NCBI GenBank assembly: GCA_017538795.1
Contig: JAFYIE010000040.1
Coordinates: 1-41,432 of the forward strand
DNA: 41,432 nt
Reading direction: 5' to 3'
Origin: Bacteroidales bacterium
GTDB taxonomy: Bacteria > Bacteroidota > Bacteroidia > Bacteroidales > F082
The notes below the pieces were generated by a model, which saw only the letters and a program-made list of their open reading frames with translations, did not search any database and had not been told where the DNA came from. Below are positions 13,374 to 26,187 of this stretch, piece by piece (positions within the stretch are counted from its first letter, which is position 1; the number at the start of each line of letters is the position of its first letter). The translations under genes were made by a program, and so were the position numbers.

Positions 13374-14981
<1,608 letters not shown>

Positions 14982-14983
14982 CT

Positions 14984-15751
14984 ATGGAATTTACCACACT
15001 TCAAATAGGAATTGAGAAAAATGTCGCGCGCGTCGCGCTGAACCGTCCCGAGGTTCGCAACGCCTTGAACGCCATGATGATACATGAGCTCACCGAGGCT
15101 ATCGACTGGCTCGACGCGCGCGAGGATATCCACGTGATTGAGATTTGCGGCAATGGTAAGAGTTTCTGTGCCGGCGCCGACCTCAACTACATGAAAGACA
15201 TAGCAAAATATGGCTATGCGCAGAATCTTGATGACGCAAACAAACTCTCGAAGCTGTTTCAGACCATCTATTTCTGCAACACTCCAGTCATCGCACTGGT
15301 GCACGGTCACGTAATAGGCGGCGGCAACGGCATCATAGCAGCTTGCGACGTGGTTTTGGCTGAAAACGATACTGTTTTTGCTTTCAGCGAAGTAAAACTG
15401 GGACTTACTCCAGCCACGATTTCGCCTTTCGTCATTGCACGTTGCGGTGAGACTATGGCTCGCGACACCATGCTGAGCGGCCGTAAGTTCACGGCTCAGG
15501 AAGCGTTGAAATTCAACCTTGTGAACTACGTCGGCACGATGGAGGAACTCAACAAACGCCTGGATTTCTACACAGAGCAGTATCTTGCGGCATCGCCAGC
15601 GGCAATTAGAGATTGCAAACAATTGATCCGTTCAGTCGCAGGACATGACGACCCATATAGTGATGTTTTTTATTTGACATCGGCGCTCATCGCGAAAGAG
15701 CGAATGGGAGCGGATGCCCAAGAGAGAATGAAGAAATTTTTAGAAAAATAA
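14984..15751 (+). CDS. Enoyl-CoA hydratase family protein, LiuC / 3-methylglutaconyl-CoA hydratase-like
   Basis: 255 residues, crotonase fold. Visible are the oxyanion-hole motifs GKSFCAGADLNYM and HGHVIGGGNGIIAACDVV, and the active-site region FAFSEVKLGLTPATISPFV, where the first Glu-containing stretch matches LiuC. The YAQNLDDANKLSKLFQTIY segment also resembles bacterial LiuC. The usual reaction is hydration of 3-methylglutaconyl-CoA to HMG-CoA, the step after methylcrotonyl-CoA carboxylase in leucine breakdown, which fits its position 2 bases after that enzyme's beta subunit. No HMG-CoA lyase gene is in the window. Confidence 0.86.
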   Translation: MEFTTLQIGIEKNVARVALNRPEVRNALNAMMIHELTEAIDWLDAREDIHVIEICGNGKSFCAGADLNYMKDIAKYGYAQNLDDANKLSKLFQTIYFCNTPVIALVHGHVIGGGNGIIAACDVVLAENDTVFAFSEVKLGLTPATISPFVIARCGETMARDTMLSGRKFTAQEALKFNLVNYVGTMEELNKRLDFYTEQYLAASPAAIRDCKQLIRSVAGHDDPYSDVFYLTSALIAKERMGADAQERMKKFLEK

Positions 15752-15752
15752 T

Positions 15753-16223
15753 ATGCCCAAATTCGAGATACGCCCAGCCCAAGAAAATGAATCCGCCTTG
15801 GTGTTAGATTTCATTAAAAAGCTCGCCACTTACGAGAAAATGCTCGATGAAGTGGAAGCCACTCCAGAGACCATCCACGATTCCCTTTTTGTGAAGCAGG
15901 ATGCCGAGGTCGTCTTTGGTTGCGAGGATGGCATCCCTGTCGGTTTTGCCTTGTTTTTCCACAACTTCAGCACCTTCGTCGGACGTAAAGGGCTCTATCT
16001 CGAAGATCTCTTCGTTATCCCCGAAAAACGTGGTTTAGGCTACGGAAAAGCCTTGTTATTGTATCTCGCTCATCTCGCCAAAGAGCGCCACTGCGGCCGC
16101 ATGGAGTGGGTCTGCCTCGACTGGAACCAGCCCTCAATCGACTTCTATAAATCATTGGGTGCGAAACCAATGGATGACTGGACGATTTACAGACTGGATG
16201 AAAAGAGGTTGGGGGAGATGTAA
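15753..16223 (+). CDS. GNAT N-acetyltransferase, spermidine/spermine (diamine) acetyltransferase-like
   Basis: 156 residues. GNAT fold with the acetyl-CoA loop RGLGYGKALL. The sequence LYLEDLFVIPEKRGLGYGKAL plus the DWNQPSIDFYKSLGAKPMDDWTIYRLD segment closely follows eukaryotic SSAT and its bacterial homologues, which acetylate polyamines or thialysine-type amines. It begins one base after the hydratase stop, so it is in the same transcript. Its link to acyl-CoA metabolism is unclear. It is the last gene before the AT-rich island, which suggests the island entered just behind it. Confidence 0.87.
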   Translation: MPKFEIRPAQENESALVLDFIKKLATYEKMLDEVEATPETIHDSLFVKQDAEVVFGCEDGIPVGFALFFHNFSTFVGRKGLYLEDLFVIPEKRGLGYGKALLLYLAHLAKERHCGRMEWVCLDWNQPSIDFYKSLGAKPMDDWTIYRLDEKRLGEM

Positions 16224-16263
16224 ATTTTTTTGAGAATTTTAATAGTATTTCAAAAAAAAGTAT

Positions 16264-16271
16264 TATCTTTG
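16264..16271 (+). promoter_or_regulatory. -7 element (TATCTTTG) for the structured leader and NYN gene
   Basis: TATCTTTGCAG, 86 bases before the NYN start, so transcription begins around 16276 and includes the two hairpins. Confidence 0.6.
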
Positions 16272-16275
16272 CAGC

Positions 16276-16341
16276 AGATTTATCCCCCGTAGGTGAGAAA
16301 GACTACGGCCCGCCACCTTAATTAGGGTGGCTTATTTTTAT
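16276..16341 (+). ncRNA. Structured leader with two hairpins upstream of the NYN gene
   Basis: Just after the predicted start the RNA can form CCGTAG / CTACGG (16287-16292 with 16303-16308, 10-base loop). Then comes GCCACCT / GGGTGGC (16312-16318 with 16325-16331), followed by a U-rich run TTATTTTTATC. The second hairpin plus U-run looks like an intrinsic terminator, so the leader may end as a short RNA of about 65 bases or act as an attenuator. I do not recognise a named RNA family. Confidence 0.5.
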
Positions 16342-16356
16342 CAAATATCAAAACTT

Positions 16357-16995
16357 ATGGAAAAGCAAAAAGTTATAGTGTATGTTGACGGTTTCAATTT
16401 TTATTATGGATTGAAAAAGAATAAATGTTGGAGAAAGTATTATTGGTTGGATATGGTACGTTTCTTTGAACTTGGACTTAAAGAAAATCAAGAGCTTGTG
16501 GCTGTAAAATATTTTTCTGCGATTCCTGATGACGAAATCAAACAGAAGAACCAAGATGCATTTTTCCAAGCGAATAAACAGAATTCTAAGTTTCAATTGA
16601 TTTTAGGAAAATATTTGCGTAAGGAGATTATTTGTCGTAATTGCGGCTATACAATTCGCACATACGAGGAAAAGGAATCAGATGTTCGTATCGCTACACA
16701 GGTGGTTTCTGATGCGTATAAGAAAAATTGTGATATTTCTATAGTTGTATCTGCTGACAGCGATATGATTCCGGCCGTTGAATTGGCAATGGAGGCGGGG
16801 CATCGTGTATTTGTTTATTTTCCGCCGAATCACTATTCAAGTGATTTGAATACGATTACAGGTGGTGCAGTGTTTTTAAGTCGTTATGAAAAACGTTTCA
16901 AACAGAGTCTGTTGCCTGATGTTATTCATCTTGATAAATATGATTATGATTTGCATATTCCAGAAAAATGGAAACAATATAAAAATACGAAATGA
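16357..16995 (+). CDS. NYN-domain (PIN-like) ribonuclease
   Basis: 212 residues from the ATG at 16357 (MEKQKVIVYVDGFNFYYGL); a possible upstream GTG start lies inside the leader hairpin and is rejected. This is the LabA/DUF88-type NYN fold, a metal-dependent nuclease relative of PIN domains. Acidic residues expected in the active site are present: Asp11 and Asn14 in YVDGFNFYYGL, Asp109 in ESDVRIATQVVSDAY, and Asp134 with Asp136 in VSADSDMIPAVELA. A CRNC pair (Cys93, Cys96) may form half of a metal knuckle. Codon use is visibly AT-rich against the carboxylase genes around it. Targets are probably RNA. It may act in defence or RNA turnover; a toxin-like role with the structured leader is speculation. 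Confidence 0.88.
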   Translation: MEKQKVIVYVDGFNFYYGLKKNKCWRKYYWLDMVRFFELGLKENQELVAVKYFSAIPDDEIKQKNQDAFFQANKQNSKFQLILGKYLRKEIICRNCGYTIRTYEEKESDVRIATQVVSDAYKKNCDISIVVSADSDMIPAVELAMEAGHRVFVYFPPNHYSSDLNTITGGAVFLSRYEKRFKQSLLPDVIHLDKYDYDLHIPEKWKQYKNTK

Positions 16996-17000
16996 CCTGT

Positions 17001-17035
17001 CATTCCGAACCCCGAAGTGGAGAAATCTCCGTATT
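17001..17035 (+). repeat. Short interspersed repeat fragment (TCATTCCGA ... GGAGAAATCTCC)
   Basis: The sequence between the NYN stop and the left inverted repeat carries TGTCATTCCGA and then GGAGAAATCTCC. The same two blocks occur in the larger inverted element at 24052-24137. Such REP-like elements are scattered between genes. The rest of the 385-base gap is the left inverted repeat, the hairpin at 17239-17276 and the helicase promoter. Confidence 0.5.
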
Positions 17036-17068
17036 TTTTAATTATCGTCCTCTCGGGCTAATTTTCTT

Positions 17069-17170
17069 GATACTTTTTTCTTGACAAAATAGTATCCAAA
17101 AAGTCAAGACCCGAATTATCGGCCACCGCTGCCCCGCGATTCGGACCGTCTTACCGCACCGCGAAGCGAC
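17069..17170 (+). repeat. Left inverted-repeat element flanking the helicase
   Basis: Bases 17069-17144 are the reverse complement of the element at 20324-20512 (its 113-bp insert removed), with about 72 of 76 positions matching. The homology continues to the GCGAAGCGAC at 17161-17170. Inside it GATACT / AGTATC (17069-17074 with the copy near 17091) forms a hairpin; in the right copy that base pair is swapped but still paired. A GC-rich GGGGCTAAGCCCC hairpin follows at about 17175. Confidence 0.8.
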
Positions 17171-17238
17171 CTGGGGGCTAAGCCCCGATGGCAAAAATCA
17201 AGCTGCGTGGTTAAGAGAGAGTATTAGACCTTCGCATA

Positions 17239-17276
17239 AAAAAGCTTACAAATTTTAAAAAAAATGTGAGCTTTTT
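17239..17276 (+). terminator. Hairpin terminator candidate between NYN and helicase genes
   Basis: AAAAAGCTTACA pairs with TGTGAGCTTTTT (one G-T pair) around a 14-base AT-rich loop and ends in five T. It would stop transcripts from the NYN side. Confidence 0.55.
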
Positions 17277-17307
17277 GATTACTATTGATATTTTTTTATC
17301 AAAAATA

Positions 17308-17337
17308 TTGAAGTGTTCCAAAATGTTTGTAATTTTG
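17308..17337 (+). promoter_or_regulatory. Promoter of the helicase gene
   Basis: TTG at 17308-17310 and TAATTTTG at 17330-17337, 19 bases apart, fit the Bacteroidota -33/-7 arrangement; the ATG is at 17381. The helicase therefore has its own promoter inside the inverted-repeat unit. Confidence 0.55.
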
Positions 17338-17380
17338 TTGAGTAAAACAAAATAATTATATAACAGGTGATATCAGATCT

Positions 17381-20254
17381 ATGTTGTTTGTTGTAATAAG
17401 CTGTGTTATTTTGATAATTGGAGTCTATGCTATTATCGCAAGGCACAAGTATAGACGGAAAGTCAATAGTATTGCTGCACAAATAAAGACACTGTCGGAG
17501 TATCTTGATGAATTGTTTAAACCTGACAAGTGTATTAGACAAGAAGATATCGATGCTTTTTTAGAAAAAAATAAGATAGCAATAGATGCTGCTAAAGAAA
17601 TTTATCAAATTCCAAACCGATATAAGAATCTGCTACAATCCACTGGTATTGAAGAATTTAATATAAGAGTTAATGATGATAATCTTCAAGCGAGTTTAAG
17701 AGAAAATAATACTATTTTTGATGCAATAGAACAATTAAATAATCTATGCGAAGGGCCAATTAATAAATATAATGCTCTAGTGGCACCAGACCATTACTTT
17801 TCCTACTCAGAAATGGATACCTTTAAGGAGTCATTGTCTGAGATAGAATCATGTGAGAATCAAATATTCCCTAAATATTCAAAGTTTGTTACAAATAATT
17901 CGGTGAATACTCTATTAAATATCAAAAAGGATATTGATCGAATAAGATTGATTCATAATAAGGAATTTATAAGCAATGAGCTCGCCAAAAACGAACTGTA
18001 TTTTGATAATGTTTTAGGCAAATATCCTCTTGATTCTCAGCAAAGAGACTCAATTGTTAAGCTTGAAGATAATTGCTTGGTAATAGCAAGTGCTGGTAGC
18101 GGAAAAACATCGACTATATTAGGAAAAGCTAAATATCTGGTGGAAAAAAGAGGGATTGATCCTTCCAAGATACTTCTGATAACTTATACCAGAAAGGCGG
18201 CTAACGAGCTACATGAGCGTATGAAGATTGAAGGAATAACGTGTAGCACATTCCATGCGTTGGCATATCAAATAATAGCCCAAATAACAGGACAAGCACC
18301 GTCTATTTGTGATGCAGATTTGCCGCTTAATGTATTTAGAAACCTTATTCTAAACAATAAAGAGTTTTTACATGCTGTAAATAATTATATTATCAATCAG
18401 CAATCGCTGATGAAACTCGAACACGATTATAACGATGCTTTTTCATACTTTGAAGATAGAAAGAAGTATGGCATACAAGCACTATTTCCTGATGCTGACG
18501 GTAAACTTGTTTTTACTAGAAGTGAGGAAGAAAAGCGTCTAGTTTCAATCCTTACAAAATGGAGTATAACATTTAGATACGAGAATCCATATGAGGTAAA
18601 AACCACAACACCGGAAAAGAGACAATATAAGCCAGATTTTACTATATATTTCCAAGATGAAAAGGGAGAGTGGAAATGGATTTATCTGGAACATTTTGGC
18701 ATTGATTCATCAGGCAATGTGCCAATGTGGTTTGGAGAAGGAACTCGTGGCGGATGGAAAGCAGCCAATGAAAAGTATAACGAAGGTGTCGTGTGGAAGA
18801 GACAAACACATCAACGATATCGCACAACACTCATTGAGACAACAAGTGCTGACTTCAAAAATGGGTCGGTAGAAGCAAAGTTGCTAATGCAGTTGCGTCG
18901 TTGCGGAGTGCCAGTAAAAGAACGCACAGATCAAGAACTTTATGACCTTTTAGTAAAGCGCAATAGAAAACTTGAAAAATCGGTTTATACCTTACTACTT
19001 TCATTTATCACTCTCATGAAAGCGAATGAGAAAACCATCGACTTGCTTTTGGGCGATTTACTAATTAATAAAAATGATAGGAGTGAGAATATACTTACTA
19101 AGATAATACAACCATTCTATGAAGAATATCAGAGTGAACTGAACAAAAACTACGAGATAGATTTTACAGACGCTATTATTCAAGCTACTGAATTGTGCAG
19201 AGATGGTCTGTGGAGAGATTATGATTATATATTGGTTGATGAGTTTCAGGATATTTCAATTGACAGATATAAATTCCTTCAAGCATTGCGAAGTGATGAG
19301 CCTAAAACCAAATTATATTGCGTTGGTGATGACTGGCAGTCAATTTTCCGCTTTGCCGGTTCGGATATGTCGCTATTTTATGAGTTTGAGAAATATTTCG
19401 GTTATACAGAGCTTTGCAAGATAGAAACAACTTATCGTTTCCATCAGCCACTAATTGACAGGTCTTCAGAATTTATTATGAAGAACAAAGAGCAAAAAGC
19501 TAAAACCATCAAAACACCAAACGATGATATTTACAAGACATATTTGAGCTTTGAAAAATGTGAGAGTAATGATTATGGCGTTTTGAAAAAGGTTGGGGAA
19601 ATAGTTGGTAAAATACCTGCAAGCCAATCAGTTATCATAATTGGAAGATACAATTACGATGCTACATCAGTCGGATTTAATGGCAAAATCGACATAAAAG
19701 AAAGCAAGATCAGGGTTAATATTGCAGGTAGAGAAATACCATTCTTGTCTGTTCATTCCGCTAAAGGACTTGAAGCGGACAATGTTATTTTAATCAATTG
19801 TAATCAAGGAGCATATGGGTTCCCATCGCTTATTGAAGACGACCCGATTCTTGATTTCGTTTTGAGTAAGCGTGAAACCTATCCGTTTGCAGAGGAGCGT
19901 CGTTTATTCTATGTGGCAATGACAAGAGCCAGAATGCATATGTATGTGCTCTTCGATCAAGACAAACCATCTCCTTTTATTGGTGAGTTCTTACTTAAAG
20001 TCGAAAAAGGATCATATCTCTGTCCACGATGTCTGGAAGGTAAGGTAACTGTTGTAAAAGAAGGTACTACAACTAACAATGTCAAATACAGATGCTTTAC
20101 ATGCTCAAATAAAGAAGGAGGTTGTGATTTCTTTGAAACAAAATATGGAGATTTGACTCCTCCTGGTATTAAGATTACAGACAAAATGACCGCTCAAGAT
20201 GTTGAGAAATTGAGAGAGACTAGGAGAAGATTGGCAAATAACAGACAAAAGTAA
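17381..20254 (+). CDS. Membrane-anchored UvrD/Rep-like (helicase IV type) helicase with nuclease-like insert and zinc ribbon
   Basis: 957 residues. Residues 1-20 (MLFVVISCVILIIGVYAIIA) form one membrane segment, then about 190 helical residues. The superfamily 1 helicase core is intact: ASAGSGKT (Walker A, 236-243), TYTRKAANEL, DEFQD (Walker B, 620-624), VGDDWQSIFRFAGSD, TYRFHQPL, SVHSAKGLE, and VAMTRAR. Between motifs Ia and II is an insert with YKPDF (416-420), YLEHFG (435-440) and a TTLIETTSADF block, resembling the PD-(D/E)xK-like nuclease of helicase IV (HelD) relatives. The C-terminus has a zinc ribbon (Cys881, 884, 905, 908). It lies between 76-bp inverted repeats and is AT-rich. It is a candidate defence or mobile-element-linked enzyme acting on DNA near the membrane; the role is inferred. 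Confidence 0.9.
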   Translation: MLFVVISCVILIIGVYAIIARHKYRRKVNSIAAQIKTLSEYLDELFKPDKCIRQEDIDAFLEKNKIAIDAAKEIYQIPNRYKNLLQSTGIEEFNIRVNDDNLQASLRENNTIFDAIEQLNNLCEGPINKYNALVAPDHYFSYSEMDTFKESLSEIESCENQIFPKYSKFVTNNSVNTLLNIKKDIDRIRLIHNKEFISNELAKNELYFDNVLGKYPLDSQQRDSIVKLEDNCLVIASAGSGKTSTILGKAKYLVEKRGIDPSKILLITYTRKAANELHERMKIEGITCSTFHALAYQIIAQITGQAPSICDADLPLNVFRNLILNNKEFLHAVNNYIINQQSLMKLEHDYNDAFSYFEDRKKYGIQALFPDADGKLVFTRSEEEKRLVSILTKWSITFRYENPYEVKTTTPEKRQYKPDFTIYFQDEKGEWKWIYLEHFGIDSSGNVPMWFGEGTRGGWKAANEKYNEGVVWKRQTHQRYRTTLIETTSADFKNGSVEAKLLMQLRRCGVPVKERTDQELYDLLVKRNRKLEKSVYTLLLSFITLMKANEKTIDLLLGDLLINKNDRSENILTKIIQPFYEEYQSELNKNYEIDFTDAIIQATELCRDGLWRDYDYILVDEFQDISIDRYKFLQALRSDEPKTKLYCVGDDWQSIFRFAGSDMSLFYEFEKYFGYTELCKIETTYRFHQPLIDRSSEFIMKNKEQKAKTIKTPNDDIYKTYLSFEKCESNDYGVLKKVGEIVGKIPASQSVIIIGRYNYDATSVGFNGKIDIKESKIRVNIAGREIPFLSVHSAKGLEADNVILINCNQGAYGFPSLIEDDPILDFVLSKRETYPFAEERRLFYVAMTRARMHMYVLFDQDKPSPFIGEFLLKVEKGSYLCPRCLEGKVTVVKEGTTTNNVKYRCFTCSNKEGGCDFFETKYGDLTPPGIKITDKMTAQDVEKLRETRRRLANNRQK

Positions 20255-20297
20255 ACGATGCTGGAAATGTCTTGACTTTTCTTGGCTTTGCTCCCAC

Positions 20298-20512
20298 GTC
20301 GCTTCGCGGCGCGCGGGCCCGGCCCGAATCGCGGGGCAGCGGTGGCCAAAAAGCCGGGCTAAGGCGCTGATTCTCAAACGGGGCGCCTGGTCGTTTGCTT
20401 TCATCATAAAGCACTACCCGTGCTGAGAATCACAGCCTTAGCTCGGCTGCAGCGGGGGCCGATAATTCGGGCCTTGACTTTTTGGTTACTTTTTTGTCAA
20501 GAAAAAAGTAAC
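20298..20512 (-). repeat. Right inverted-repeat element, interrupted by a 113-bp insertion
   Basis: 20324-20347 plus 20461-20512 is the reverse complement of the left element (17069-17144), with about 4 mismatches in 76. The GTCGCTTCGC at 20298-20307 mirrors the left element's outer part. The terminal GTTACTTTTTT / AAAAAAGTAAC hairpin is near perfect here and could act as a two-way terminator. Together with the nested insertion this accounts for most of the 324-base gap after the helicase. Confidence 0.8.
20348..20460. mobile_element. MITE-like 113-bp insertion inside the right inverted repeat
   Basis: The left element reads straight through GGTGGCCGATAAT, whereas the right one has 113 extra bases at that point, with GGCC at 20344-20347 and again at 20457-20460 (target-duplication-like). 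The insert has long inverted arms: 20352-20376 and 20424-20448 match at about 22 of 25 positions. It has no open frame and so would depend on an enzyme encoded elsewhere. Confidence 0.6.
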
Positions 20513-20566
20513 ATAAATAATATTATTTCTAAAACTAATAATCTGTCCGAATTAGCAAAAAATCAC

Positions 20567-20574
20567 TATCTTTG
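20567..20574 (+). promoter_or_regulatory. -7 element (TATCTTTG) directly before the DUF1905 start
   Basis: TATCTTTG ends only 4 bases before the first ATG (20579), so the mRNA probably has almost no leader. Confidence 0.5.
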
Positions 20575-20578
20575 TGGC

Positions 20579-20842
20579 ATGGTTATGTTTGAATTTGACG
20601 CAATAATTCTTCAAAACGAAGATATGGACGCTGCCTACGTCGAGGTTCCGTTTGACATCAAGGCGATTTTCGGCAAAGGCCGACTTTTGGTTCATGCCAC
20701 CTTCGATGGCATGCCTTACGACGGCCAAATCGTGAAGATGGGAACGCCGTGCTACATCATCGGAGTTCGCAAAGACATCAGAAAACAAATTGGAAAAACC
20801 TTCGGCGATACGGTGAAGGTGACGTTTCGGGAGAGAAAATAA
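20579..20842 (+). CDS. DUF1905 family protein
   Basis: 87 residues ([31 protein letters not shown] onward), the complete DUF1905 domain: FEFDAIILQ, the acidic [11 protein letters not shown] strand, the [24 protein letters not shown] loop and the [24 protein letters not shown] end. The family is small, cytosolic and of unknown function, often near YdeI/OmpD-associated proteins. The start could also be the ATG at 20585. The longer open frame from 20420 runs through the repeat element and is rejected. It sits between the island and the carboxylase alpha gene. Confidence 0.85.
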
Positions 20843-20903: not shown

Positions 20904-22907
20904 ATGCCTTCGAAGAAGATTCATAAAGTGCTTATTGCAGGCCGCGGAGAGATTGCGGTGAGGGTGATGCGTACGCTTAAAAAGCTGAGTATCAACTCAG
21001 TAGCTATCTATGCCGACAACGACGCCGACACCCTGCACCGCCGTATGGCTGATGAAGCCAGACCTCTCGGCAACGGCCAACTTAAAGATACTTACCTCAA
21101 TATTCAGAAGATTATCGACGCAGCTTTGGATACTGGCGCCGACGCTATACATCCTGGCTACGGTTTTTTGTCGGAAAGTCCGGAACTTGCCGAAGCTTGC
21201 GCGAATAACAATATCATCTTCATCGGTCCTGATGCCGACACCATGCGCCTCATGGGTAACAAAATAGCTGCCCGCGAGTTTGCGAAATCGCACGGAATAC
21301 CAGTGACAACTGGCGTTACCGGCACTATGGACGACATCATGAAGCAAGCCGACAAGCTTCCGTATCCTGTGCTGATAAAAGCAGCGGCAGGCGGCGGTGG
21401 TAAAGGCATGCACATCGTCAGAAGTAAAGATGACCTTCGCGATGAGCTTGAAAAAGCATCTCGTGAAGCACAGAAATACTTCGGCGACGGCGAGGTCTAC
21501 GTCGAGAAATATGTCGAGAACCCACGCCATATCGAGGTGCAGGTGCTTGCCGACCATTATGGTAACGTGATTCATCTCTACGAACGCGAATGCTCAGTTC
21601 AACGCCGCTACCAGAAGATTATCGAAGAATCGCCGTCGCCGACTCTCACTCCAGAGAAACGCCATGCGATTTGCGAAACGGCTGTAAGTCTCTGTAAAGC
21701 AGTGGGTTACAAAAACGCTGGCACAGTGGAGTTTTTGGTCGATAAAGACCTCAACTTCTACTTCCTCGAGATGAACACCCGTATCCAGGTGGAGCATCCT
21801 GTCACTGAACAGCGCACAGGTATCGACATCGTCGAGGAGCAGATTCGCATCGCTCGTGGCAAGGAGATGGGCTGGACACAAGACATGATTCAGGACAAGG
21901 GGCACGCCATCGAATGCCGTGTGTACGCTGAGGATGCGGAGAATAACTTCCTCCCGGCTGCCGGCGAGGTAACTCTATATCACGAGCCTCAGATGCGCGG
22001 CGTGCGTATTGACAGCAGCATCGACGGTCCTTGCACCATCAGCGACAGCTACGACCCGATGATTGCCAAGTTGATATGCTTCGGCAAGACCCGCGAAGAA
22101 GCAATCGAGATAACTCGCAGGGCGTTGAAGGAATATATCGTTCAGACGGAGAAGACAAATATCCCCTATCTGCAAAGTATCATTGATAATCAAGATTTTA
22201 CAAATAATAAAATCGACACTTCATATTGCGGAAAGCATCAGGAGGAACTGGTCGAAACCATGCGGCAGACTCGCGAAAACATCAAGAAAGAAGATGTTGC
22301 AGCGCTGTTCCTCTTCCATGATTTCAACAACCGTCAGAATACTGCAAACGTTTGGAACTCAATAGGTTACTGGCGTTTCCAGATGTCGCTCAACGTCACC
22401 GTGATGGAGTCGCACAACGATTCCAACCCACAGACTATGAAGGTGCAGATCAACCGTCTTTCGAGCACTAACCTCGAGTGCGTTATCAACGGAAAGCCTT
22501 ATTCTGTAATGCTTTCGCAGAATGGCGAAGTCCAGAAGGTGATAATAAACGGCCGTACAGAGCCTGTGTTTGTGTCACAGACTCCGCATCACGACTACTG
22601 CGTGCATCTGCGCGGCTTGGATTTCATCTGCCATCGCGACGACCAGCTCAACGACATGAAAGATTATTCGCATACCGATGTGGTTGGCGACGACATGAAG
22701 TTCTTCTCGCCTATGCCAGGTAACGTGATGAAAATCAACGTGAAAGAAGGGGATGAGGTGCATTACGGCACTATTCTTTGCATTGTCGAAGCAATGAAGA
22801 TGGAGAACAATATTGTGGCAAAAGGCGATGCTAAAGTCTTGAAAATAAATGTCAAAGAGGGTGAAAAAGTGGATACGAAAACTGTTTTAATTGAACTTGG
22901 AATATGA
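20904..22907 (+). CDS. Biotin carboxylase/biotin carrier (alpha) subunit of an acyl-CoA carboxylase, MCC type
   Basis: 667 residues from MPSKKIHKVL; a TTG start nine codons upstream is rejected because it lies within the -7 element. Domains: biotin carboxylase N-terminal (AGRGEIAVRVMRTLKKL), ATP-grasp (KAAAGGGGKGMHIV), the MNTRIQVEHPVTEQ catalytic block, the biotin carboxylase C-terminal domain (HAIECRVYAEDAENNFLPAAG), a connecting domain, and a biotinyl carrier domain with EAMKM (biotin lysine near 632). It loads CO2 on biotin with ATP for transfer by the beta subunit at 13374-14981. The one-chain alpha architecture and that partner make methylcrotonyl-CoA carboxylase the best guess. Its stop overlaps the dehydrogenase ATG by 4 bases. 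Confidence 0.92.
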   Translation: MPSKKIHKVLIAGRGEIAVRVMRTLKKLSINSVAIYADNDADTLHRRMADEARPLGNGQLKDTYLNIQKIIDAALDTGADAIHPGYGFLSESPELAEACANNNIIFIGPDADTMRLMGNKIAAREFAKSHGIPVTTGVTGTMDDIMKQADKLPYPVLIKAAAGGGGKGMHIVRSKDDLRDELEKASREAQKYFGDGEVYVEKYVENPRHIEVQVLADHYGNVIHLYERECSVQRRYQKIIEESPSPTLTPEKRHAICETAVSLCKAVGYKNAGTVEFLVDKDLNFYFLEMNTRIQVEHPVTEQRTGIDIVEEQIRIARGKEMGWTQDMIQDKGHAIECRVYAEDAENNFLPAAGEVTLYHEPQMRGVRIDSSIDGPCTISDSYDPMIAKLICFGKTREEAIEITRRALKEYIVQTEKTNIPYLQSIIDNQDFTNNKIDTSYCGKHQEELVETMRQTRENIKKEDVAALFLFHDFNNRQNTANVWNSIGYWRFQMSLNVTVMESHNDSNPQTMKVQINRLSSTNLECVINGKPYSVMLSQNGEVQKVIINGRTEPVFVSQTPHHDYCVHLRGLDFICHRDDQLNDMKDYSHTDVVGDDMKFFSPMPGNVMKINVKEGDEVHYGTILCIVEAMKMENNIVAKGDAKVLKINVKEGEKVDTKTVLIELGI

Positions 22908-24046
22908 ATTTCGGATTGACAGAAAAACAAATTGAATTGCGCGCGAAAGTCCGCGATTTCGCTGAGAAAGAAGTGAAACCGGTGGCGGCGTTCAACGACG
23001 AGCACGAGAAATTCGACGTCGAGCTGACCAAGAAGATGGGAAAACTTGGACTTCTTGGCATGTGCGTGCCTCAGGAATACGGCGGACAAGGTCTCGACAC
23101 TTTGTCGTATATCATTGCCGTTGAGGAACTTGCACGCGTCGATGGCTCCACGGCAGCTACCATAGCGGCGGATAACTCATTGGGTATCGGCCCTATCAAG
23201 GAATACGGAACAAAAGAACAGAAAGAGAAATATCTCCCGAAACTCTGCAAAGACCATCTCTGGGGCTTCGGCTTGACTGAAGAGACGGCTGGCAGCGACT
23301 CGAGAGGAACAAAATCGACTGCAAAGAAAGTTGATAATCAATGGGTTGTCAACGGAACAAAGATATTCATCACCAACAGCGCCACGCCAATGACGTTGGG
23401 CAGCACCATCCAGGTTATCAGCGGCGAGAGCAACGGAAAGCCTGAGTTTACTGCTTTTCTCATCGAAAACGACATGCCTGGCTTCACTCAGCGTCCGATG
23501 GACCGCAAGATGATGTGGCGTGCCTCGAACACTGGTGAGTTGAAGTTCAACAACGTGAAGTTGGGCGATGAGAACATCCTCGGAAAACCAGGCGACGGCT
23601 CGCATATCATGCTGGCAACTTTGGACGGCGGACGTCTCTCCATCGGCGCTATGGGTCTCGGCTGCGCTCAGGGTGCCTTCGAGATGGCTCTCGAATATTC
23701 GAAGCAACGTGAGCAGTTTGGCAAGCCGGTGTGCAAGTTCCAGGCTGTCAGCTTCATGCTTGCCGAGATGGCGATGAAGATCGAGGCGGCACGCGAACTG
23801 CTTTACAAAGCCTGCCGCATGAAAGACGCTCATCTGCCTTACGGAAAACAAGCAGCGATGGCGAAACTCTACTGCTCACAGGTGGCTGCCGAGGTTTGCG
23901 ACAAAGCCGTCCAGGTGATGGGAGGCCACGGTCTGCTGAAGGACTTCAACATGGAACGCTTCTACCGCGACCAGCGCATCCTTCAAATCGGCGAAGGAAC
24001 GAGCGAAATCTTAAAATTAGTTATCTCAAGATATATCGGCTGTTGA
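22904..24046 (+). CDS. Short-chain (butyryl-CoA type) acyl-CoA dehydrogenase
   Basis: 380 residues, normal length. FAD enzyme that introduces or removes the alpha-beta double bond of acyl-CoA together with electron-transfer flavoprotein (not in the window). Motifs: WGFGLTEETAGSDSRG, FITNSATPMTL, REQFGKPVCKFQAV, VMGGHGLLKDFNMERFYRD, QIGEGTSEI. The catalytic base is at the classical C-terminal position, Glu364 in GEGTSE. At the site of the isovaleryl-CoA dehydrogenase base (LDLERL in that family) it has LDGGRL, with Gly243. It is therefore SCAD/butyryl-CoA type rather than isovaleryl-CoA dehydrogenase, although it sits translationally coupled to a methylcrotonyl-CoA-carboxylase-type subunit. 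Confidence 0.92.
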   Translation: MNFGLTEKQIELRAKVRDFAEKEVKPVAAFNDEHEKFDVELTKKMGKLGLLGMCVPQEYGGQGLDTLSYIIAVEELARVDGSTAATIAADNSLGIGPIKEYGTKEQKEKYLPKLCKDHLWGFGLTEETAGSDSRGTKSTAKKVDNQWVVNGTKIFITNSATPMTLGSTIQVISGESNGKPEFTAFLIENDMPGFTQRPMDRKMMWRASNTGELKFNNVKLGDENILGKPGDGSHIMLATLDGGRLSIGAMGLGCAQGAFEMALEYSKQREQFGKPVCKFQAVSFMLAEMAMKIEAARELLYKACRMKDAHLPYGKQAAMAKLYCSQVAAEVCDKAVQVMGGHGLLKDFNMERFYRDQRILQIGEGTSEILKLVISRYIGC

Positions 24047-24051
24047 TAGCC

Positions 24052-24137
24052 GGAGATTTCTCCATTCCGCTTCGCTTCAGTCGAAATGACGGCACTAAAC
24101 GTCATTCCGACCGACCGCAGGGAGCGGAGGAATCTCA
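24052..24137. repeat. Inverted pair of REP-like elements between acyl-CoA dehydrogenase and ptb
   Basis: GAGATTTCTCC ... TCGAAATGACG (from 24053) faces CGTCATTCCGAC ... GGAATCTC (24100-24137). The two halves are imperfect reverse complements and would make one long hairpin in the mRNA. Shorter relatives lie at 17001-17035 and, degraded, at 38711-38746. It may reduce read-through or stabilise upstream mRNA. Confidence 0.6.
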
Positions 24138-24192
24138 TAAAATAATAACGAAAACAATTGAATTAAATAAATAACAAAAAAAGTTAACGAAA

Positions 24193-25095
24193 ATGGAAAT
24201 CACCAAATTAAATCAAATGTTCGACGTGCTGAAAAGCCGTCCTAAAAAACGTCTCGTAGCAGCTTTTGCTATGGATGACCACACTGTTTGCGCTGTCAAC
24301 GACGCTGTCGACAACGGTCTTATCGACGCCACCCTCATCGGTGACCCTGCGCGTATCGCTGAGATCTGCAAGGCAGAGAAAATCGACATCAACAAGTTCA
24401 AAATCGTTGAGGAAAAAGACGATGTGAAGGCTGCTGCTTTAGCATGTGACCTCATCAACCGTGGCGAAGGCGACATCCTCATGAAGGGCCTTCTCCCGAC
24501 CGATAAATACATGCGCGCCATCCTCAACAAGGAACGCGGCCTCTGCCCACCAAACGTCACATTGGCACACGTCGCAGTGATCCAAAACCCTAACTACCAC
24601 AAGCTTCTCGTGGCATCTGACTGCGCTATCATCCCGTTGCCTGACCTCAAGCAGAAACAGACAATCTTGAAATATGTCACCACAGTGTCGAAGGCTCTCG
24701 GCGTGAAGACTCCGAAAGTCGCTCTCGTGACAGCTACCGAGCAGATGAGCGCCGGTATCCCGGCATGCGTCGACGCAGCTATCATCTCGAAGATGGCCGA
24801 CCGCGGTCAGATCAAGGGTTGCCTCGTCGAAGGTCCTATCTCTCTCGACCTCGCTTGCGACGCTGAGACAGCACAGATCAAAGGCATGAACAGCCCAGTG
24901 GCTGGCGACGCCGACTGCCTCGTGTTCCCTAACCTCGAAGCATCGAACGTGTTCTACAAATGCTGCTCGAAATTCGACAAAGCCGAAATCGGAGCAATGC
25001 TCATGGGCGCCAAGGTCCCTTGTGTCCTCTCATCACGCGGCGACACCTCGCTGACGAAGCTCTATTCAATCGCATTGGCAGCATTAATCGCATAA
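24193..25095 (+). CDS. ptb: Phosphate butyryltransferase
   Basis: 300 residues, full length. Transfers acyl groups from butyryl-CoA (or branched acyl-CoA) to phosphate, giving acyl phosphate. It has the PTA/PTB fold: KKRLVAAFAMDDHTVCAVNDAV, the GDILMKGLLPTDKYMRAILNKERGL block, LTHVAVI-like LAHVAVIQNPNYHKLLVASDCAI, and the PVAGDADCLVFPNLEASNVFYK block, which is diagnostic of the family. Butyrate kinase follows 21 bases downstream. Acid-resistant branched-chain substrates (isovaleryl-CoA, isobutyryl-CoA) are also known for the family, so the physiological acid is uncertain. Confidence 0.94.
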   Translation: MEITKLNQMFDVLKSRPKKRLVAAFAMDDHTVCAVNDAVDNGLIDATLIGDPARIAEICKAEKIDINKFKIVEEKDDVKAAALACDLINRGEGDILMKGLLPTDKYMRAILNKERGLCPPNVTLAHVAVIQNPNYHKLLVASDCAIIPLPDLKQKQTILKYVTTVSKALGVKTPKVALVTATEQMSAGIPACVDAAIISKMADRGQIKGCLVEGPISLDLACDAETAQIKGMNSPVAGDADCLVFPNLEASNVFYKCCSKFDKAEIGAMLMGAKVPCVLSSRGDTSLTKLYSIALAALIA

Positions 25096-25116
25096 ATAAC
25101 ATAAAACATAAAAATC

Positions 25117-26187
25117 ATGTATAAACTGTTAATCGTCAATCCAGGCTCGACATCAACGAAGGTTGCTGTTTTCAATGACAAAGAACAGGTTTTCAAGAAG
25201 AATATCAAACATTCTGTTGAAGACTTGGCAAAATTCGATCATATCGCTGATCAGTTCTCATATCGTAAAGATATGATTCTCAATGAATTGAAGAACGAAG
25301 GCGTTGATATCAACGGTCTCAGCGCAGTTGTTGGCCGCGGCGGTCTGCTTCATCCGCTCACATCAGGTGTTTACGAGGTGAACGAGCCGATGATGCGTGA
25401 CCTTAAGGCTGCAACATATGGCGAGCACGCCTGCAACCTCGGTGGTCTCATCGCCAACGACATCGCCAAGGAATATGGCGTGAAGGCATTCATCGCTGAC
25501 CCTGTCGTCGTCGATGAAATGGAAGAACTGGCACGTTTTTCTGGTCACCCGTTGTTCCCACGTATCTCTATCTTCCACGCCCTCAACCAGAAGATGATCG
25601 CCCGTCAGCATGCTGAGGCTGTCGGCAAGAAATACGAAGACCTCAACCTCATCGGTGTGCACCTTGGCGGTGGTATCTCGGTGGCGGCTCACAAGAAAGG
25701 TCGCGTGGTGGACGTCAACAACGCTCTCAATGGCGACGGTCCTTTCACACCTGAACGCTCGGGCGCTCTTCCGTCAGGACCATTGATGAAGGCCTGCTTC
25801 AGCGGCAAATACACCAAGAAAGACGTCGACCTTATGCTTAAGGGACAAGGCGGTTTCGTGGCATATCTCGGCACCAACGACGCTCTCGAGGTTGAAAACG
25901 CTGTGAAGGCTGGCAACAAGGAATGGGAGAAGGTGTATCGTGCCATGGCTTACCAGGTCGCTAAGGAAATCGGCGGTCTCGCGGCAGCAGCTCTCGACAT
26001 GAACGTCGACGGCATCTTCATCACCGGTGGTATGGCTTACGACAAGACCTTCTGCGGCATCGTGACTGAACACGTCGAGAAGATCGCTCCAGTGTACCGT
26101 TACCCAGGTGAAGACGAGATGCTCGCCCTCGCTTTGAACGGCATCATGGTGCTCGACGGCAAGGCTGAAAACAAGAAATACGAATAA
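25117..26187 (+). CDS. buk: Butyrate kinase (or branched-chain fatty acid kinase)
   Basis: 356 residues. Acetokinase-family enzyme that moves phosphate from acyl phosphate to ADP, conserving energy. Motifs: VNPGSTSTKVAVFNDKE (phosphate loop), VGRGGLLHPLTSGVYEV, LIGVHLGGGISVAAHKKGRVVDVNNALNGDGPFTPERSG, DGIFITGGMAYD. Paired with ptb it completes acyl-CoA to acid plus ATP. A 28-bp perfect palindrome begins 13 bases after the stop and could serve as terminator. Confidence 0.95.
   Translation: MYKLLIVNPGSTSTKVAVFNDKEQVFKKNIKHSVEDLAKFDHIADQFSYRKDMILNELKNEGVDINGLSAVVGRGGLLHPLTSGVYEVNEPMMRDLKAATYGEHACNLGGLIANDIAKEYGVKAFIADPVVVDEMEELARFSGHPLFPRISIFHALNQKMIARQHAEAVGKKYEDLNLIGVHLGGGISVAAHKKGRVVDVNNALNGDGPFTPERSGALPSGPLMKACFSGKYTKKDVDLMLKGQGGFVAYLGTNDALEVENAVKAGNKEWEKVYRAMAYQVAKEIGGLAAAALDMNVDGIFITGGMAYDKTFCGIVTEHVEKIAPVYRYPGEDEMLALALNGIMVLDGKAENKKYE

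Follow-up and report, generated by a model that had tools for sequence, protein, structure and literature searches.

Which partner does the NYN nuclease of an AT-rich island in a Bacteroidales genome belong with? The question is raised by contig JAFYIE010000040.1 of assembly GCA_017538795.1 (41,432 nt, the whole of which is called the window here). The island lies among acyl-CoA genes and carries the nuclease gene, a helicase gene and a 'structured leader'. The original prediction, made from the letters of the DNA, took the nuclease and the helicase as a unit, possibly an anti-phage system. Comparison of many loci leads to another answer. As judged from these comparisons, the conserved partner of NYN is the small RNA called 'structured leader', not the helicase.

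The nuclease and its partner

Both protein genes lie within one AT-rich block, at a site that holds defence-like cargo in relatives, as expected if the island were a NYN-helicase anti-phage system. However, the relative G026 has a helicase 97% identical to that of the window at the same site, together with a ParD antitoxin gene and a DUF1905 gene, and NYN is missing. A similar helicase was found near NYN at 0/136 other loci; 138 loci were fetched with flanks of 1.5–5 kb, some of them sharing a genome, and the only two that have it are copies of the window itself. An arm of a dispersed repeat also separates the two genes in the island. In G033 relatives of both proteins are present, on different contigs. 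Failure of the two genes to co-occur elsewhere had been named beforehand as grounds for abandoning the pair; no co-occurrence was found in the sample searched, which counts against it. The pair was rejected, and a NYN-helicase system is a very improbable reading of the island. The NYN protein itself does match a candidate-defence model, HEC-09, so this part of the prediction stands, whereas the pairing with the helicase as a defence unit does not.

The NYN open reading frame (ORF) matches Pfam NYN with an E value of 2.3e-12 and 48.1 bits (cut-off 24.2). Residues 4-206 align with positions 2-203 of the 203 positions of PADLOC HEC-09 (PDLC04163; E 2.9e-55), a full-length match. At E values up to 0.01 Pfam detects NYN in it and not Abi_2. 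The structure prediction is confident, with a pLDDT (predicted local distance difference test) score of 94.3, and a structure search ranks the NYN domains 2qip, 5yaa and 6fdl highest. The NYN/PIN acidic active site is retained, and its acidic residues are invariant or nearly so among relatives. RNase activity of a CRISPR-associated NYN depends on the aspartate equivalent to the first of these (PMC11346440). Because the acidic residues are conserved and the equivalent aspartate is needed in the CRISPR-associated protein, NYN is a putative RNase.

The window RNA folds with −21.1 kcal/mol (z −2.58), and 4/200 shuffled sequences fold equally well. This bears out the 'structured leader', which is a conserved RNA gene. 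NYN relatives elsewhere possess the same architecture of promoter-like box, hairpin and terminator hairpin, with different sequences. Three alignable classes were recognized, IIa (n=21), IIb (n=29) and I (n=15), which are represented by models R1, R2 and R3, respectively. The window RNA is a seed of R1. The consensus of the Bacteroidota −7 box is TAnnTTTG. Rfam gave no family for the window RNA at an E value of 1 or better, and none above its cut-off at seven relative loci. BjrC68 (RF02353) was considered as an identity and rejected: it reached 25.4 bits on the relative locus L061 against a gathering cut-off of 39, did not match the window RNA, and was judged a generic match since below-cut-off matches occur in 9/14 control genomes too.

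Covariation was well above that of shuffled alignments in each class (0.483 vs 0.157 in IIa, 0.526 vs 0.198 in IIb and 0.555 vs 0.191 in I). None of 500 shuffles reached the observed score in any class, and slid controls were also far lower. Because the seeds had been chosen partly by pairing (fully paired stems were required), which inflates the pairing counts, loci were chosen again by the loop alone. Where the IIb loop CTTTCTTG lies upstream of NYN, 5/5 flanking pairs are present in 29/30 cases, compared with 1/66 elsewhere in the same loci.

The models were then applied to 160 NYN loci. Of these, 93 are closer relatives (80/80 from genomes and 13/80 from viral contigs; tblastn E up to 3e-30) and 67 are distant viral loci. 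With a threshold of 25 bits, fixed after the scores were seen, an RNA match of at least 25 bits adjoins NYN at 86/93 closer loci (R1 24, R2 37, R3 25), many of the 93 being seeds or near copies. Non-seed matches include L145, L142, L149, L141, L133, L138, a Thermus plasmid (class I RNA, 60.9 bits) and a phage record. Among the other seven loci, inspection by eye shows two hairpins in L098, L124, L155 and L162, where the models match weakly or not at all, and the contigs of L143 and L170 end too near NYN. In L132 (3344) the RNA and the first 12 NYN residues, D11 included, are missing, apparently through a single deletion just past the promoter-like box. L095 is among the 86 by virtue of a class IIb RNA (995-1048) that follows NYN closely on its downstream side. 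The upstream R1 match of this locus is weak (20.6 bits), and a second NYN was not seen in the 350 nt read past the downstream RNA.

The 67 distant viral loci were compared by architecture. All nine proteins scanned from these loci match HEC-09. Two hairpins plus a terminator were found in 41/57 distinct distant upstreams (those of at least 200 nt, with repeats of the same 120 nt dropped) vs 79/496 control ORF upstreams, and in 79/87 NYN upstreams against the same controls; the finder picks wrong or doubtful hairpins at some loci, and the controls were all drawn from the first locus set. Two distant loci, L216:2912-3042 and L207:4845-4966, have three tandem two-hairpin units each, with a period of ~50 nt, directly upstream of NYN. 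Judged from their layout, these units come closest to a classical type III antitoxin array. Because 41/57 distant upstreams pass the test and tandem units occur in L207 and L216, the two-hairpin architecture seems to run through the whole family, in further sequence classes beyond the three modelled.

The family is widely distributed. Among the best 80 of 508 NYN relatives reported, the labels include Bacteroidota, Spirochaetes, Chloroflexota, Proteobacteria, Actinobacteria, Planctomycetota, Atribacteria, KSB1 and others; labels of metagenome-assembled genomes may be wrong. A class I NYN query matched 384/72,556 plasmid records at E values up to 1e-5, and in 118 of these the match covers at least 80% of the query. 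Enterobacterial plasmids of 3.4–4.3 kb with 3–4 annotated genes carry NYN, and three such NYNs match HEC-09. NYN matches were found in 3/50,697 phage records, one of which has a IIa RNA (57.7 bits). The enterobacterial plasmid loci L309, L310, L376 and L377 have a longer RNA-like region upstream, with a conserved CACTACC-hairpin and a strong terminator before NYN; the five sequences of such regions compared match none of the three models at 25 bits. A search of 295 genomes with R2 gave two strong matches (62 and 72 bits), both adjoining NYN. NYN is absent from the other 28 of 30 R2 loci checked (up to 37.1 bits), these 28 being part of a longer list of weak matches.

Position, inheritance and persistence of the RNA

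In the window the terminator (16312-16339) precedes the NYN start codon at 16357, and the same layout is found in class II loci, unlike most class I loci. An RNA on the same strand as NYN whose terminator lies immediately before the gene is what a cis attenuator or riboswitch of NYN would look like. The class II layout also fits a shared promoter. However, the class I RNA is mostly on the opposite strand. Among 25 class I loci it lies upstream on the opposite strand in 20 (twice in L159), upstream on the same strand in three (L134, L141 and L156) and downstream on the opposite strand in two (L151 and L138), so that its strand is opposite to that of NYN in 22/25. Copies of the RNA also occur alone. 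Class I orientation and the downstream copies led to rejection of the cis attenuator as a general explanation, which is very improbable; additional attenuation may occur in class II. The divergent, co-directional and downstream class I copies instead identify the RNA, by comparison of loci, as a separate gene whose position and strand relative to NYN can change.

Tandem RNA units are found among relatives in L138 (four) and L159 (two). The four copies in L138 (5660-6034, from a Dehalococcoidia genome) are class I RNAs downstream of NYN, and each appears by eye to have a TTGACA-like promoter and a terminator.

The class of the RNA follows the NYN phylogeny, even though several phyla share class I. 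The three RNA classes need 2 changes, the minimum, on a tree of 65 NYN proteins, compared with a mean of 28.8 when classes are shuffled (as low in 0/200 shuffles); 3/65 rows have no class, and the IIa branch is weakly supported (87/45). By this comparison the RNA is co-inherited with NYN.

Co-inheritance would also be expected if the RNA were an activator or guide, in which case the NYN-RNA complex would be the effector and the hairpin loop would recognize the target. A conserved single-stranded loop is indeed present in each class. The loops are conserved within a class, though, whereas guides would vary. A search with R3 also bears on this reading. In 395 genomes of the phylum, 41 class I RNA places were found in 34 genomes. 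Fifteen adjoin an intact NYN, 6 a frameshifted, interrupted or partial NYN and 3 an N-terminal remnant; at 17 NYN was not found nearby. The remnants come from local tblastn and the other states from coordinates set against a whole-genome NYN search, which we infer to have covered the same 395 genomes. For the 17 solitary RNAs, absence of NYN was checked by local tblastn in 9 and by the whole-genome search at E values up to 1e-20 in 8; a 12-residue match at L365 (E 0.008) was counted as none, and L363 is cut at a contig end. The genome-wide searches with R1, R2 and R3 used stricter filters, and some RNAs may be missed.

Conversely, each of the 16 intact class I NYNs, defined as scoring more than 270 bits to HEC-09 without interruption, has the RNA: 15 of these RNAs came from the R3 search of the genomes, and that of L065 (29.7 bits) from a separate scan. 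In 60 relatives, 8/8 R1 matches (4 of them seeds) adjoin NYN, and three of these NYNs are broken (G008, G010 and G022). The RNA appears to outlive the nuclease, and an intact nuclease without the RNA was not found in the samples. This asymmetry is an antitoxin-like signature and matches what is predicted for a toxin-antitoxin pair.

The solitary RNAs read in context keep a promoter-like box and terminator. Among 12 solitary or remnant loci compared, four pairs share neighbouring genes across different genomes, which is unexpected for a guide lacking its effector; an activator or guide is therefore unlikely. RNA identity within the four pairs is 90–95%. Since that of the flanks ranges from far lower to higher, selection on the solitary copies is not proved. 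No partner gene beside the RNA is common to the 12 loci, matches being mostly between the syntenic pairs.

Solitary copies would also be expected if NYN were a maturation enzyme and the processed RNA acted in trans as an ordinary regulatory small RNA. A CRISPR-associated NYN has been proposed to trim CRISPR RNA intermediates (PMC11346440). However, the solitary RNAs would then have no processing enzyme, and we regard maturation as decidedly improbable.

The island and its other cargo

The features of the locus are collected in Table 1. G+C content is 0.349 at 16225-17058 and 0.352 in the helicase ORF, compared with 0.519 (13374-16223) and 0.506 (20904-26187) in the flanks. The AT-rich block inside the acyl-CoA genes is thus confirmed, at ~35% against 51–52%. 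As to gene content, NYN and the helicase had been recognized correctly and the DUF1905 gene at the downstream end had been overlooked. By eye, the helicase translation has a hydrophobic N-terminus, a nuclease-like insert and C-terminal Cys pairs.

Table 1. Features of the island in the window
Feature	Position	Strand	Basis
Bacteroidota-type −7 promoter-like box TATCTTTG of the small RNA	16264..16271	+	By eye; similar boxes precede the RNA in relatives
Class IIa small RNA ('structured leader'), ~57 nt	16282..16338	+	Model R1, 76.6 bits
Hairpin 1, 6-bp stem and 10-nt loop GTGAGAAAGA	16287..16308	+	6/6 pairs with two-sided changes in IIa alignment A2
Hairpin 2, terminator stem, followed by T-rich run 16332-16339	16312..16331	+	Covariation, folding, sequence read
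NYN nuclease, family HEC-09, 212 aa, D11/E105/D109/D134/D136 kept	16357..16995	+	Pfam, PADLOC
Left arms of inverted repeats I1 and I2; dispersed intergenic repeat separating NYN from helicase	17059..17184	.	Repeat search
UvrD/helicase IV-like gene, 957 aa, apparently separate cargo	17381..20254	+	Pfam and locus comparison
Right arms of inverted repeats I1 and I2, with a hairpin in between	20284..20522	.	Repeat search
DUF1905 gene	20555..20842	+	Pfam; also present at the same site in G026

The repeat elements reported in the block were found again as inverted repeats of 74 nt (88% complementary) and 75 nt (80%) on both sides of the helicase, and pieces of them recur elsewhere in the genome. At L369:2752-10484 (G000:C6), dispersed-repeat pieces bracket a cytosine methyltransferase, a GHKL-like ATPase (by eye), a large PLD/SNF2-like helicase and a Vsr endonuclease. 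Further copies of the helicase-flanking repeat lie near housekeeping-like genes.

Between the acetyltransferase and the carboxylase alpha subunit, the three nearest relatives that share this gene order differ in what fills the gap. Beside the gap of G026 described above, that of G015 holds a HicB-family gene with a type II methyltransferase and a restriction enzyme, and that of G017 holds ParD with further small genes; candidate-defence models match two of them. The three therefore carry restriction-modification, toxin-antitoxin or, without NYN, helicase genes. Island-free relatives were found among 20 same-genus alpha-subunit loci (L401-L404 left out): in G004, G013, G020 and G023 the hydratase, 54–58% identical to that of the window, lies 34–81 nt upstream of the alpha subunit. 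At the other 16/20 loci a hydratase match was not found within the 1.5 kb examined. The proposal that the island splits an operon agrees with these 4/20 relatives. The other cargo in the gap and the island-free relatives together indicate that the block is an insert at a variable site, as had been proposed, and the gap contents indicate that NYN and the helicase were gained or lost independently. By the same comparison, the helicase and the DUF1905 gene count as cargo of this site that is independent of NYN. A further insert of ~4 kb with an AAA_14/DUF4143 gene is present in G026 between rlmN and the carboxylase beta subunit (L047:1475-5251); these two genes are adjacent in the window.

A candidate RNA-restrained nuclease

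Probably, then, the module is an RNA-restrained NYN RNase whose mode of action resembles that of type III toxin-antitoxin systems, the nuclease being unrelated. It would have two components, an RNA gene of ~57 nt (a 5' tail, a hairpin with a class-conserved loop and a terminator hairpin) and the HEC-09 NYN nuclease. The nuclease, a putative RNase, would be harmful to the cell. The RNA would be produced in excess, since its expression is uncoupled from that of NYN, in class II by a terminator and in class I by a separate divergent promoter. It would bind NYN by way of its hairpins and hold it inactive. The proposed trigger is loss of the RNA, through phage transcription shut-off or through loss of the plasmid or island, upon which NYN would be freed to cut its presumed target, cellular or phage RNA. 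The outcome would be a system like type III toxin-antitoxin or abortive infection in which the nuclease is unrelated.

Several points weigh against this proposal, beside the choice of seeds mentioned above. The tandem repeats typical of a type III antitoxin are lacking in the window, where R1 has a single match in its own genome (E up to 1e-4). Classical type III antitoxins are pseudoknotted; a pseudoknot between loop and terminator, tried here in one version on A2, was not supported, with 63.9% paired vs 65.3% when shuffled and 0 two-sided changes. Further pair types in IIb number 12 vs 14.1 when shuffled, the opposite direction. The classes are not universal: 0 of the 67 distant viral loci reach at least 25 bits with the three models, and 6 of 8 plasmid and phage loci scanned, the six being plasmid loci, match none of the models at 25 bits. 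The solitary RNAs may indicate that the RNA has a function of its own, and the broken NYNs, found in draft assemblies, may in part be sequence errors. As to defence, in one survey HEC-09 goes with susceptibility to phage rather than resistance (PMC12447246), and few of 101 NYN-neighbour proteins scanned (of 145 counted) match defence families. No second conserved neighbour gene emerged either; among the first 25 families listed, none matched more than 2/101 neighbour proteins. The evidence for defence is mixed: the site is a cargo hotspot, yet few neighbours elsewhere are defence-like and one survey reports susceptibility. An anti-phage role of the module is a candidate role that we infer, and its benefit could be defence or addiction.

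Known systems were compared with the module. In type III ToxIN/CptIN/TenpIN systems (PMC5086642), as in class II here, a structured RNA and an intrinsic terminator lie directly before the nuclease gene. Both occur on chromosomes, plasmids and phage-like contigs, and tandem RNA units are found in some distant members here (L207 and L216, three each). However, the nuclease here is NYN by sequence and predicted model, with no ToxN chain among the structural matches listed; the window has a single RNA unit, class I RNAs are mostly divergent or downstream, and the pseudoknot tried was unsupported. AbiF/RCd22 (PMC12373285) also has a structured RNA gene adjoining an RNase-like protein, and RCd22 acts in cis and in trans and has been likened to type III (PMC12373285). 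AbiF is HEPN-like, however, and RCd22 has two repeated motifs, differences taken from their descriptions. The CRISPR-associated NYN of Bacteroides fragilis, a Mn-dependent RNase, shares the NYN fold and equivalent catalytic aspartates (PMC11346440). It belongs to a type III CRISPR locus, whereas the protein here has its own RNA gene. HEC-09 (PADLOC-DB 2.0.0, PDLC04163), which the window NYN matches over its full length, is a protein model only and has no description. No RNA partner for HEC-09/NYN was found in open-access literature searched by title and abstract start.

More tentatively, and with somewhat less than even confidence, the loci might represent an unrecognised class spread over many phyla. 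In this class a NYN/PIN-fold RNase would be checked by a two-hairpin RNA gene on either strand and either side, single or tandem, and the solitary copies would be genomic antidotes against plasmid or phage modules.

As catalogued in a defence database, HEC-09 consists of one protein. If the RNA is its partner, cloning and phage tests of the protein alone would cover half of the system. The RNA offers an antitoxin hypothesis, a marker for further members and possibly a new toxin family for RNA-protein toxin-antitoxin systems. Because members are found on small enterobacterial plasmids, the question is testable in common laboratory hosts.

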